Positions 12,761 to 17,239 of a DNA stretch of 34,909 bases are shown here, piece by piece. The stretch is from Actinomycetota bacterium. Lineage in GTDB: Bacteria > Actinomycetota > Actinomycetes > S36-B12. Both the position numbers and the translations under genes were made by a program. Where the stretch lies: positions 1 through 34,909 of the forward strand of contig JAQCEO010000017.1 in the NCBI GenBank assembly GCA_027729805.1. Direction: 5' to 3'. Every line of letters begins with the position of its first letter. Position 1 is the first letter of the stretch. The notes beneath the pieces were generated by a model that was given only the letters and a program-made list of their open reading frames with translations, was not told the DNA's origin and did not search any database.

Positions 12761-13180
12761 ATGGGAAAACTACTGAAAGCTAGCCTTATCGCCGCCGCCG
12801 CCACGGCGCTCACCTTGGGGGTTACCGCCACTAGCGGTGCGGCAACCTTGACCAAGGGCCCAGACCCCACCTTGTTGGTACTTCGACTGCCGACCCAGGT
12901 CCAGATCAAAGATGGCGTAGCCATCCTGCTGTCGCAGGACACCAATACGACGACCGGGTACTCCTGGAGCATCAAAGTATCCGGCGATAAGTCGGCCGTG
13001 AAGGTCTACGCCGGCGAGTACGAAGCACCGGCCGCTGACGGAGCGGTCGGGGTTGCCGGCACCACCACCTGGTACATCAAGGCGCGGGCCCCGGGCCAAG
13101 CCGTCCTTAAATTAGTCGCCACCCCACCCGGTGGGGGCGCTGGCACCGTGAAGAAGCTGACGGTAACCGTCACCCGGTAG
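12761..13180 (+). CDS. Secreted chagasin-like (inhibitor family I42) protein
   Basis: 139 residues. An N-terminal signal peptide is clear: MGKLLK, a hydrophobic stretch, and a likely cleavage after about residue 28 (TSGAA). The mature part resembles the chagasin fold, small immunoglobulin-like inhibitors of papain-type cysteine proteases. The first inhibitory loop NPTTG appears as NTTTGYSW (62-69) and the second GxGG loop as GAVGVAGTTTW (94-104). The third loop, RPW in chagasin, is replaced by TPPGGG (121-126), so inhibitory activity is uncertain. It has its own promoter and sits between map and infA, where no such gene is usual. Family call moderately strong; target unknown. Confidence 0.7.
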   Translation: MGKLLKASLIAAAATALTLGVTATSGAATLTKGPDPTLLVLRLPTQVQIKDGVAILLSQDTNTTTGYSWSIKVSGDKSAVKVYAGEYEAPAADGAVGVAGTTTWYIKARAPGQAVLKLVATPPGGGAGTVKKLTVTVTR

Positions 13181-13413
13181 GGAGGAAAGTAGCGAGGAGG
13201 CGGCGGGCCCGGCCCCGGCGCCCGGACCTTCATTGGCCAAATTTGGGGGGGCGATTATGAGGAAATGGCCCCGGCCCGTAGACTCAGTAGGCTGAGGTGG
13301 GGCTTCCCCGTTCGTTCGCTGGCAGATTCTCGGGTTTCCGGGTTTTTTTTGGCGCGTTACGGGGGGTTGCGCTGTGAAAGCAGCACTCAGCGCACCTGGT
13401 GAAAGCGGAGGAT
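13181..13413 (+). other. Long intergenic region before infA
   Basis: This is the longest non-coding stretch within the ribosomal cluster (233 bases). Its first half is extremely GC-rich. It holds short hairpins CTCAG/CTGAG (13283-13296) and GGGG/CCCC (13299-13309), a run of eight T at 13343-13350 preceded by GGG-rich sequence, possibly the end of the inhibitor transcript, and a GCGCTG/CAGCGC stem (13369-13393) just before the infA ribosome-binding site. A weak promoter candidate is TTGGCC (13233) with TATGAG (13256), spacing 17. A promoter for infA onward is expected here. Confidence 0.5.
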
Positions 13414-13671: not shown

Positions 13672-13785
13672 ATGAAGGTCAAGCCGAGCGTGAAGAAAAT
13701 CTGCGACAAGTGCAAAGTCATTCGTCGCCACGGTCGCGTCATGGTGATTTGCGAGAACGTGCGTCACAAGCAGCGTCAAGGCTAA
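13672..13785 (+). CDS. rpmJ: 50S ribosomal protein L36, zinc-binding type
   Basis: 37 residues, a very short gene. The sequence [20 protein letters not shown] then [17 protein letters not shown] is the canonical L36, with zinc ligands C11, C14, C27 and H32, hence the zinc-containing form. Ribosome-binding site AAGGAAGAAG lies at 13660-13669. It follows infA by 36 bases as in most bacteria. Confidence 0.96.
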
Positions 13786-13809
13786 CCCCTTGAAGTGGTA
13801 AGGCGGGCT

Positions 13810-13944
13810 TTCGGGGAGACAACCCGAACACCTGATAATTACGCGGTACCCGACCCCTTGCGAAAGCAAGGACGACACCTTCGGACACGAGGCCGAAGAC
13901 CTGCCTTGGCGGGCAGGACTGGTACTGCACCCATACCCCGTGCA
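13810..13944 (+). promoter_or_regulatory. Five consecutive hairpins between rpmJ and rpsM
   Basis: The 182-base gap can fold into a row of perfect stems: TTCGGG/CCCGAA (13810-13828); CCTTGC/GCAAGG closing a GAAA tetraloop (13856-13871); CTTCGG/CCGAAG (13879-13898); CCTGCC/GGCAGG (13900-13917); TGCAC/GTGCA (13926-13944). The last ends 23 bases before the rpsM ATG. Such density of stems suggests a structured mRNA leader. In Escherichia coli S4 controls this operon by binding a pseudoknot before rpsM; a comparable role is an inference, and the structure is not that of the enteric element. Confidence 0.5.
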
Positions 13945-13967
13945 TAAGAAGAAGAGAGAACGCCACG

Positions 13968-14345
13968 ATGGCAAGACTTGTTGGTGTTGACCTGCCGCGC
14001 GATAAGCGCATGGCGGTTGCACTCACCTATATCTTCGGCATCGGCCGCTCCCAAGCTGCGAAGGCACTTGCAGCGACCGGCGTGAGCCCGGACCTCAGGT
14101 CCCAAGAATTAACCGATGAACAACTGGTTGCCCTTCGTGACTGGATCGACGTCAACCTCAAAGTAGAAGGCGATCTGCGCCGTGAGGTTGCTGCCGACAT
14201 CAGGCGCAAGGTCGAGATTGGTTGCTACCAGGGAATCCGGCACCGCCGCGGAATGCCGGTTCGTGGTCAACGAACCCACACCAATGCGCGTACCCGCAAG
14301 GGTCCGCGTAAGACCGTCGCCGGAAAGAAGAAGGTCGGCAAGTAA
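13968..14345 (+). CDS. rpsM: 30S ribosomal protein S13
   Basis: 125 residues. S13 lies in the 30S head and makes intersubunit bridges with L5. Conserved pieces are [39 protein letters not shown], the helix-two-turn-helix region, and the C-terminal [20 protein letters not shown] then [18 protein letters not shown]. It follows the hairpin-rich gap; a purine-rich AGAAGAGAGAA at 13950-13960 serves as ribosome-binding site. Confidence 0.97.
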
Positions 14346-14396: not shown

Positions 14397-14804
14397 ATGG
14401 CCCCGAAGTCAGGCAGCAAGGCGCCCGCTAAGAAGGTGCGCCGCAAAGAGAAGAAGAACGTGGCCCACGGTCATGCTCATATTAAGAGCACTTTCAATAA
14501 CACCATCGTGTCGATAACTGATCCCGCGGGTGCGGTCATCGCATGGGCGAGTGCCGGGCAGGTTGGCTTCAAGGGCAGCCGCAAGTCCACCCCCTTCGCC
14601 GCCCAGTTGGCGGCTGAGGCTGCAGCGCGCCGGGCGATGGAGCACGGCATGCGCAAGGTTGATGTCTTCGTTAAGGGTCCAGGTTCAGGCCGCGAGACGG
14701 CCATTCGGTCCCTGCAGGCAACGGGCCTAGAAGTTGGCTCAATTTCCGATGTCAGTCCGGTACCCCATAACGGTTGCCGTCCCTCCAAACGTCGTCGCGT
14801 CTGA
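14397..14804 (+). CDS. rpsK: 30S ribosomal protein S11
   Basis: 135 residues. S11 is on the 30S platform near the mRNA exit. A lysine-rich N-terminal segment (residues 1-22) precedes the core, which has [40 protein letters not shown] and [20 protein letters not shown], ending [11 protein letters not shown]. Ribosome-binding site AGGAGAG at 14383-14389. Standard position between rpsM and rpsD. Confidence 0.97.
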
Positions 14805-14844: not shown

Positions 14845-15471
14845 ATGGCGCGATATACCGATGCGGATTGCAAGCGCTGCCGCCGCGAAAAGATGAAACT
14901 ATTCCTCAAGGGCTCCAAGTGCGAGTCACCGAAGTGCCCATTCGAGAAGCGTCCTTATCCGCCCGGCCAGCACGGTCGCGGGCGGTCTAAGGACAGCGAA
15001 TACCTGCTGCAGCTTCGGGAGAAGCAAAAGGCCACCCGGATGTATGGCGTGCTCGAGAAGCAGTTCTCGAACTACTATCTGGAAGCACAGCGTCAATCCG
15101 GTAAGACCGGCGAGAACTTGCTGCGCATCTTGGAGTCTCGCCTTGACAACGTTGTGTTCCGCGCAGGCTTTGCTAAATCGCGCGATATGGCCCGTCAGTT
15201 GGTAACTCACGGACATATGTTGGTTAACGGCCAAAAAGTGAACATCCCGTCTTACCGCGTTTCACCAAATGACATCGTTGAGGTGCGCGTTGGATCACGT
15301 GAGATGACCCCGTTCGTCATCGCGCATGCCGAGATCGGTGATCGCCCGGTACCGGCATGGCTCGAGGTAGTCCCCTCGCAGATGCGGATCTTGGTCCACT
15401 CGCTACCGGCACGCGCCGTAATCGATACCCAGGTCAACGAACAGCTGATCGTCGAGCTCTACTCCAAGTAA
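14845..15471 (+). CDS. rpsD: 30S ribosomal protein S4
   Basis: 208 residues. S4 nucleates 30S assembly and is a regulator of the alpha operon in enteric bacteria. The N-terminus has four cysteines (C9, C12, C26, C31; ADCKRCRREK ... GSKCESPKCPFEKR), a zinc-site pattern. The middle carries KTGENLLRILESRLDNVVFR and the S4 RNA-binding domain SRDMARQLVTHGHMLVNGQK. It ends LIVELYSK. Ribosome-binding site AGGAG at 14829-14833. If an autoregulatory target exists, the hairpins before rpsM are the obvious candidate. Confidence 0.97.
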   Translation: MARYTDADCKRCRREKMKLFLKGSKCESPKCPFEKRPYPPGQHGRGRSKDSEYLLQLREKQKATRMYGVLEKQFSNYYLEAQRQSGKTGENLLRILESRLDNVVFRAGFAKSRDMARQLVTHGHMLVNGQKVNIPSYRVSPNDIVEVRVGSREMTPFVIAHAEIGDRPVPAWLEVVPSQMRILVHSLPARAVIDTQVNEQLIVELYSK

Positions 15472-15553: not shown

Positions 15554-16651
15554 GTGCTTATTAGCCAGCGCCCAATATTCACCGAAGAACCAATCAGTGA
15601 GTTCCGTTCGCGCTTTGTCCTTGAGCCACTTGAACCAGGGTTCGGGTACACCCTTGGTAATTCAATGCGGCGCACGCTGCTGTCCTCGATACCGGGTGCC
15701 GCCGTGACGAGTATCCGAATCGATGGTGTGTTGCATGAATTCACCACGATTCCCGGGGTCAAGGAAGATGTTACCGAGCTAATCCTCAACATCAAGCAAC
15801 TTGTGGTTTCAAGTGAGCATGACGAGCCGGTTGTCATGTACCTGCGCAAACAGGGCCCAGGCGATGTAACGGCGGCCGATGTTCAGCCACCCGCGGGCGT
15901 TGAGGTGCACAACCCAGATCTGCACATAGCGACTTTGAACGGTAAGGGCAAGATCGAGATTGAACTCGTTGTCGAGCGAGGCCGCGGTTATGTGTCAGCA
16001 ACTTTGAACAAGCAGGCAGGACAAGAGATCGGTCGGATCCCGGTTGACTCCATCTATTCGCCGGTGCTGAAAGTGACCTACAAGATCGAGGCAACTCGCG
16101 TGGAGCAGCGCACCGACTTTGACAAGTTGGTTCTTGATGTTGAGACCAAGCAGTCGATGCGTCCACGCGATGCTGTTGCGTCCGCAGGTAAGACCCTTGT
16201 TGAGTTGTTCGGGTTGGCCCGTGAACTCAACTTCGAAGCGGAGGGTATTGATATCGGTCCATCGCCGACCGATTCCTTCGTTGCTGAGCAGTTGTCTACG
16301 CCGATAGAGCAGCTCGACATGACCGTCCGCTCTTACAACTGCCTCAAGCGTGAAGGCATCCACACGGTTGGTGAGCTCATCACCCGGAGCGAGGCCGATC
16401 TTCTTGACATCCGCAACTTTGGGGCGAAGTCGATTGACGAAGTCAAGGTCAAGCTCGTGAGTCTTGGCCTGGCGCTGAAGGACAGCCCGCCCGGATTCGA
16501 TCCAGGCGCGGCCGTCTACTACGACGATGACGATGATTACGATGACGATGACTTCGTCGCCGCGGAGGTAGTCGAAATCGCCCCGGCCGTTGCCATGGTC
16601 GAAGAAACCCTCGAGGATGACTCGGCGTTTGCCGAGGATGAGCGCCTTTAA
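15554..16651 (+). CDS. rpoA: RNA polymerase alpha subunit with an acidic tail
   Basis: 365 residues from GTG at 15554, with GGAAGGAAG at 15539-15547 as ribosome-binding site. The N-terminal assembly domain (to about 230) includes [20 protein letters not shown] and [20 protein letters not shown]. The C-terminal domain (about 250-315) that contacts promoter UP elements and activators has [20 protein letters not shown] and [20 protein letters not shown]. After about residue 320 there is a strongly acidic tail with two runs of aspartate and then VAAEVVE at 335-341. Tails on alpha vary in Actinomycetota; this one resembles the L17 tail encoded next door. Confidence 0.96.
16523..16552 (+). repeat. 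GACGAT-type short repeat encoding poly-aspartate in rpoA
   Basis: Ten consecutive codons at 16523-16552 are GAC or GAT except one TAC, giving two aspartate runs separated by a tyrosine in the RpoA tail. The near-perfect alternation of GAC and GAT is a hexanucleotide-like microsatellite that could change length in frame. Confidence 0.7.
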
Positions 16652-16693: not shown

Positions 16694-17239
16694 ATGCCTA
16701 CGCCAACCAAGGGTCCACGTCTGGGCGGCAGCCCGGCCCACCAGCGGTTAATGCTGGCCAACTTGGCAACCGCGTTGTTTGAGCATGGCAAGATCACCAC
16801 GACCGAGGCCAAGGCCAAGCGGCTGCGGCCGCTCGCCGAGCGCTTGATCACGTTCGCAAAGCGTGGAGATCTGCACGCGCGGCGCCGGGTGCTGATGGTG
16901 GTGCGCGATAAGTCAGTGGTGCATACCCTGTTCACCGAAATTGGGCCGAGTTTCGCAACCCGCTCGGGTGGCTACGTCCGGATCACCAAGATCGGACCGC
17001 GCAAGGGCGATAACGCACCGATGGCCGTCATTGAATTGGTGGAGCCGCTGACCGAGCAGGTGATTGCCGAGGCGACGGCTGCCACCAAGCGGGCCGCCAA
17101 GAAGTCGGCGCCGGCTCCCGAAGTTGAGGTAGTACCGGTTGCCGAGGAAATTGCCGCGACAGAGGTAGTTGAGGCTGACGACGTCGTTGCGGCAGAGGTT
17201 GTTGAGGGGGACACTGATGCGGCCTCGGATAAGTCCTGA
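16694..17239 (+). CDS. rplQ: 50S ribosomal protein L17 with an acidic tail
   Basis: 181 residues against about 116-120 for the core. The core begins [20 protein letters not shown], with [20 protein letters not shown] and [20 protein letters not shown]. From about residue 120 the protein is a low-complexity acidic tail containing VAAEVVE at 165-171, identical to seven residues in the RpoA tail. Ribosome-binding site AGGAG at 16682-16686. Last gene of the large cluster; a strong hairpin follows 18 bases after the stop. Confidence 0.96.

Follow-up and report, generated by a model that had tools for sequence, protein, structure and literature searches.

The window analysed here, 34,909 nt of DNA, is contig 38 in a draft genome of 2.03 Mb and carries a ribosomal protein gene cluster that includes an infA-rplQ block (Table 1). 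Within this block, rpmJ and rpsM are separated by 182 nt (13786-13967), the largest gap between any of its genes; the next largest, between rpsD and rpoA, measures 82 nt. The original prediction, made from the letters of the window, had singled out this gap as the only sizeable one of the alpha-type block and placed a structured RNA in it. The element described below lies in this gap, and rplQ lies four genes downstream of it. We also note several other features of the cluster. A gene for a secreted peptidase inhibitor of the chagasin family (12761-13180; Pfam Inhibitor_I42, E 2e-13) sits between map and infA, among the ribosomal protein genes, and a terminator-like hairpin with eight T residues at 13329-13350, upstream of infA, perhaps ends the transcript from map and the inhibitor gene. 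Judging from the translation, the C-terminal tail of RpoA (16500-16651) is very acidic.

Table 1. Genes and RNA features around the rpmJ-rpsM gap (positions in the window)
Feature	Position	Strand	Basis or remark
rpmJ (L36), gene 5' of the element	13672..13785	+	Pfam PF00444, E 4e-19
P0 hairpin TTCGGG-GAGACAA-CCCGAA, upstream	13810..13828	+	family alignment; weaker support than P1-P4
P1 5' strand GCGGUACC, long-range stem closing the element	13843..13850	+	pairs with 13921-13928
P2 hairpin CCUUGC-GAAA-GCAAGG	13856..13871	+	stem kept; loop length and sequence free
P3 hairpin CUUCGG-ACACGAGG-CCGAAG, loop is half of the pseudoknot	13879..13898	+	99% of cells paired
Pseudoknot 5' strand CACGAGG, in P3 loop	13886..13892	+	
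P4 hairpin CCUGCC-UUGGCG-GGCAGG	13900..13917	+	98-99% of cells paired
P1 3' strand GGUACUGC	13921..13928	+	covariation
Pseudoknot 3' strand CCCCGUG, 3' of P1	13936..13942	+	ends 25 nt before the rpsM start
Putative rpsM ribosome-binding region, purine-rich	13946..13961	+	sequence
rpsM (S13), first gene 3' of the element	13968..14345	+	Pfam PF00416
rpsK (S11)	14397..14804	+	gene order kept in relatives
rpsD (S4), within the operon in the window; moved elsewhere in Streptomyces and certain other lineages	14845..15471	+	
rpoA	15554..16651	+	
rplQ (L17)	16694..17239	+	tblastn to relatives

Covariation and architecture of the intergenic RNA

Five perfect stems, 29 bp in total, follow one another in the gap: TTCGGG/CCCGAA, CCTTGC-GAAA-GCAAGG, CTTCGG/CCGAAG and CCTGCC/GGCAGG, which correspond to P0, P2, P3 and P4 of Table 1, and TGCAC/GTGCA at 13926-13944. 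In 2000 dinucleotide shuffles, a set of five perfect stems, each 5 bp or longer and none overlapping another, never arose (shuffle mean, 0.75), and the folding z-score of 13786-13980 is -3.29. All five stems, including the one closed by a GAAA loop, are where they had been predicted, and the last of them, ending at 13944, indeed stops just short of the purine-rich stretch where ribosomes would bind ahead of rpsM.

We gathered rpmJ-rpsM gaps from the window's family (85 genomes searched), from 80 named genomes and from further regions, and aligned 45 non-redundant sequences of the family with MAFFT. In this family alignment (n=45), 95.2% of cells are in standard pairs, as against 78.9% after shuffling and 35-45% in slid controls; two-sided changes number 257, compared with 80 in the shuffled alignment, and are seen in 23 of the 33 pairs. 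RNAalifold, run unaided, recovers the same four nested helices, P1-P4. In a class-wide alignment of 58 sequences, 94.3% of cells pair (72.7% shuffled) and two-sided changes are found in 30 of the 33 pairs. At this scale, such changes affect all eight pairs of P1 and six of the seven pairs of the pseudoknot, even though the latter is absent from the structure of the model.

The pseudoknot was also examined free of any alignment. Each P3 loop was compared with the 3' strand of its own sequence and with those of other species; the own strand gave the better pairing in 18 of 21 loop classes, with exact partners such as CACGGGG/CCCCGTG, CGAGAGG/CCTCTCG, GAAGATG/CATCTTC, CTGAAAG/CTTTCAG and CGGAGG/CCTCCG. 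Six of the seven pairs form in the window, where one position is an A.C mismatch, and one mismatch among the seven is likewise found in the window's genus; most relatives form all seven. Across relatives, the end of the pseudoknot lies 18-33 nt (median, 23) from the start codon. The first pointer to this interaction came from a single-sequence descriptor search for P1, P3 and the pseudoknot, which separated poorly from shuffles because it could choose the best fit freely. We do not count the score of that search as evidence and rely on the alignment and own-versus-other tests instead.

By covariation, the RNA is shown to fold as a junction closed by P1 and holding the hairpins P2, P3 and P4, to which a pseudoknot with the P3 loop is added. 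The structured RNA proposed between rpmJ and rpsM is therefore borne out by compensatory changes in the gaps of related Actinomycetota, as had been anticipated, although its architecture differs from the five-stem fold of the original prediction. Stems 2-4 of that fold are conserved, whereas stem 1 (P0) is specific to the family, and P1 and the pseudoknot had been missed. Stem 5 (TGCAC/GTGCA), considered as a conserved helix, was rejected, with 64% of cells paired compared with 62% in shuffles; its arms coincide with the end of P1 and a pseudoknot strand. P0 is confined to the window's family, where its GGnGAGAnAACC loop is conserved and almost invariant. Support for the outer stem of P0 from the own-versus-other comparison is modest (4.9 versus 4.2 bp), RNAalifold predicts only two of its pairs, and no equivalent was seen by eye in Streptomyces or Mycobacterium. 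P0 with its GGnGAGAnAACC loop is perhaps an extra contact for a protein.

Distribution and comparison with known leaders

Although built from the window's family only, a covariance model locates the element in the corresponding position of Streptomyces (E 1e-11 to 1e-4) and also of Mycobacterium, Frankia, Demequina and others. Of 394 Actinomycetes genomes, at least 219, from 88 of 121 genera, gave a match in a whole-genome search with a broader model under strict filters (E<=0.01), nearly always one per genome. The number of genomes is a lower bound, because missed genomes carry the element under default filters: it was found in this way in the rpmJ-rpsM gap of the 14 genomes of the class missed in the phylum scan and of two genomes with off-target matches. 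Nearly all the Actinomycetes that we examined, Mycobacterium and Streptomyces among them, have thus retained the element through compensating mutations. All 29 inspected neighbourhoods of model matches place the element between rpmJ and rpsM; Dietzia keeps it, with no rpmJ found between infA and rpsM. Three apparent second copies were discarded, two as chance matches inside coding sequence and the third because a contig end had divided a single locus into two matches. Outside Actinomycetes, in the acidimicrobial, coriobacterial and other genomes inspected, the element is absent and the gap, mostly 1-46 nt, has no room for it, and the weak matches in other classes of the phylum were not near rpsM.

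When the window was compared with Rfam 15, no family reached its gathering score, and in 12 diverse loci no family was found near the element even at E<=10; this applies to the S4 and alpha-operon leaders, RF00140 among them. S4 leaders preceding rpsM are known from Clostridia and Fusobacteriales (Eckert and Weinberg 2020, PMC7247131), and the accessible text of the same work, the largest recent survey of ribosomal leaders, contains no actinobacterial S4 or rpsM leader. Similarly, no actinobacterial leader of this type is described in the accessible text of a 2024 review (PMC10931766), and we found no earlier description of the element in the open-licence literature. In Mycobacterium tuberculosis, Arnvig et al. 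2011 (PMC3207917) report a highly expressed rpsM 5' UTR of 216 nt and suggest coordinate regulation; this UTR agrees with transcription of the element, while the main text is without a structure, a pseudoknot or wider conservation. A homology between rpsM and rpoA leaders has been claimed for the same species (PMC3207917), but our model found no match before rpoA in mycobacterial loci. The class-wide structured RNA is new to the libraries and open-licence papers searched, and the kind to which we assign it, the ribosomal-protein leader, is known.

Several known leaders invite comparison. The S4 leader of the Escherichia coli alpha operon (Alpha_RBS, RF00140) also precedes rpsM of the same operon and has a pseudoknot near the ribosome-binding site. 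There, however, a complex pseudoknot is described at the rpsM initiation region (PMC10931766), whereas the actinobacterial element combines a junction of four helices with a pseudoknot made by a hairpin loop, and this pseudoknot stops 18-33 nt upstream of the start and excludes the translation initiation site. The leaders of Clostridia and Fusobacteriales occupy the same position before rpsM-rpsK-rpsD-rpoA-rplQ, but belong to other phyla; a mimic, GUAA, is conserved in the fusobacterial leader and GAAA occurs in that of Clostridia (PMC7247131), and neither is conserved in the element. The predicted L17 leader of Actino- and Proteobacteria is an actinobacterial ribosomal-protein leader linked to a gene of the operon, rplQ; rplQ is the only regulated gene listed for it (PMC7247131), while the element precedes rpsM instead. 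Finally, the mycobacterial rpsO (S15) leader has a pseudoknot that lies upstream of, rather than over, the initiation site and is required for autoregulation by the ribosomal protein (PMC8470358). It concerns another gene and another ligand, and we regard it as a functional precedent and not as a relative.

Most knowledge of how bacteria control the synthesis of their ribosomal proteins comes from gammaproteobacteria and bacilli, and almost nothing is established for Actinobacteria (PMC8470358). The element adds a covariation-supported RNA, with no Rfam entry, before the operon for S13, S11, S4, the alpha subunit of RNA polymerase and L17, in the class to which Mycobacterium and Streptomyces belong. 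Its pair-by-pair structure model is open to direct probing, and a new Rfam family could be started from the alignment.

Predicted function and candidate ligands

On comparative grounds, we consider it probable that the element, which is conserved throughout the Actinomycetes, serves the rpsM-rpsK-rpsD-rpoA-rplQ block as a cis-acting ribosomal-protein leader, with which these bacteria probably adjust the output of several ribosomal proteins. In the mechanism that we envisage, the element would be transcribed together with rpsM, and a ribosomal protein encoded by the operon, when in excess over rRNA, would bind and stabilise the junction and pseudoknot. The stabilised fold might then impede the 30S subunit in reaching the ribosome-binding site next to it, lowering translation of rpsM and the genes coupled to it, until plentiful rRNA draws the protein off and translation resumes. 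The pseudoknot lies beside the ribosome-binding site, not over it. A switch in which the 3' strand of the pseudoknot sequesters that site was rejected, pairing with the own site being no better than with the sites of other species (3.69 versus 3.69). Because the pseudoknot leaves the site uncovered and pairing with it is at the level of chance, we only infer the block of initiation.

The element raises a testable question, namely which protein feeds back on the operon, and whether this is still S4 where S4 has moved away. For the predicted leader, we hold S4 on the one hand and S13 or S11, taken together, on the other to be similarly plausible ligands, each tentatively so, and regard any other ligand as rather unlikely. 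The original prediction had invoked S4, the autogenous regulator of this operon in enteric bacteria, as grounds for a control element of the same genes. A conserved and covarying RNA at this place has strong support, and a control element is the best reading of it; the new evidence neither demonstrates nor favours a link to S4.

That the element binds S4 as an autogenous leader, with a function like that of the leader of the E. coli alpha operon, is a possibility to which we can give only guarded credence. The element shares its position in the operon with the E. coli leader, and most relatives have rpsD in the operon, as does the window, where it lies two genes downstream. According to PMC7247131 and PMC10931766, experiments support S4 as the ligand in E. 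coli and Firmicutes, and S4 is the predicted ligand in Clostridia, Fusobacteria, Bacteroidia and Flavobacteria. However, the element is intact in 29 loci that lack rpsD in the operon, 24 from Streptomycetaceae and five others, the latter including Cellulomonas, Pseudactinotalea, Demequina and Ruaniaceae. In these rpsD-less cases, the S4 gene lies elsewhere in a divergent form, which matches the description of zinc-free S4 (PMC3087516), and no credible copy of the element was present upstream of any of the 15 rpsD genes, relocated or second, for which flanking sequence was at hand. The GUAA of rRNA-mimicking S4 leaders is not conserved either, being found in the core region of 19 of 134 gaps, and the Rfam S4 and alpha-operon leaders gave no match at E<=10. 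It is because the element persists without rpsD, is not repeated before relocated rpsD and lacks a conserved GUAA that we do not favour the link to S4, which could possibly act on the element in trans.

We also note that the relocated rpsD of Streptomyces (loci L197-L201) has a long, very conserved and apparently structured leader of its own, about 220 nt upstream, in which GGGCAGCC...GGCUGCCC enclose GUGCUGCACGUAUGUGCCCAGACCAGGGGAGC and are followed by UUCCCCGGCUGCGGA and GCGACCUCCC. This leader is unrelated to the rpsM element, has no leader-type Rfam match and is a candidate S4 leader in its own right. In Streptomyces zagrosensis, a partial S4 match between rpsK and rpoA (about 1923-2201 of that locus), in a space smaller than the whole gene, is possibly a remnant of a lost in-operon rpsD.

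S13 or S11, the proteins encoded first after the element, are as likely as S4 to be the ligand. The genes rpsM and rpsK follow the element in every inspected locus where the flank reaches, including those without rpsD, as would be expected if one of their products were sensed. But rpoA and rplQ are retained as well, so gene order alone cannot single out S13 or S11, and to our knowledge neither protein is an established leader ligand. That the element represents an undescribed, class-wide RNA family of Actinomycetes with S13 or S11, and not S4, as its ligand is a suggestion that we advance with caution. If true, the alpha operon of Actinomycetes would be run by a sensor not known elsewhere, and the survival of the element after loss of rpsD in Streptomyces and several other lineages would be natural evidence of it.

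Readings in which the element is not a protein-binding leader fare less well. It might be a structural element that has no protein ligand and stabilises or processes the mRNA or separates the expression of rpmJ from that of rpsM, and its dense, stable fold (z -3.29) between cistrons that may need different output would suit such a role. We nevertheless consider this improbable, since the class-wide covariation of the pseudoknot and its fixed distance from the start (18-33 nt) exceed the needs of a stability hairpin. GC-rich hairpins upstream of a gene could also belong to a transcription attenuator or terminator. Here, a T-run is present in the last 35 nt of none of the 134 gaps, the plus strand has no terminator-like site within the gap and, with no U-run after the fold in any of the 134, attenuation is very unlikely. 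Equally hard to credit is a standby Shine-Dalgarno-like site in the P3 loop (GGAGG in many species) that is conserved as sequence: the CGGAGG of Streptomyces and Mycobacterium does resemble a Shine-Dalgarno sequence, but elsewhere the loop reads GAAGATG, CTGAAAG, CACAGGG or CTCAAGG and the partner strand has altered to match, so that it is the pairing that is kept and not the loop sequence. The chance that the gap holds a small coding gene is negligible, as the 50-codon GTG-start frame open at 13795-13947 in the window contains stop codons in several species or strains of its own genus and lacks conservation beyond that genus, and the variation, rich in indels, follows base pairing.

Two further observations count against the ribosomal-protein leader that we prefer. 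One is the pseudoknot mismatch in the window's own genus. The other comes from Geodermatophilaceae, three members of which, with rpmJ-rpsM gaps of 13-27 nt (about 56 nt in a fourth), appear to have lost the element; members without it keep rpsM-rpsK-rpsD-rpoA (L048, L051, L058). In the same three loci, the gap between rpsM and rpsK is unusually long, about 120-250 nt, and might hold a replacement for the element.
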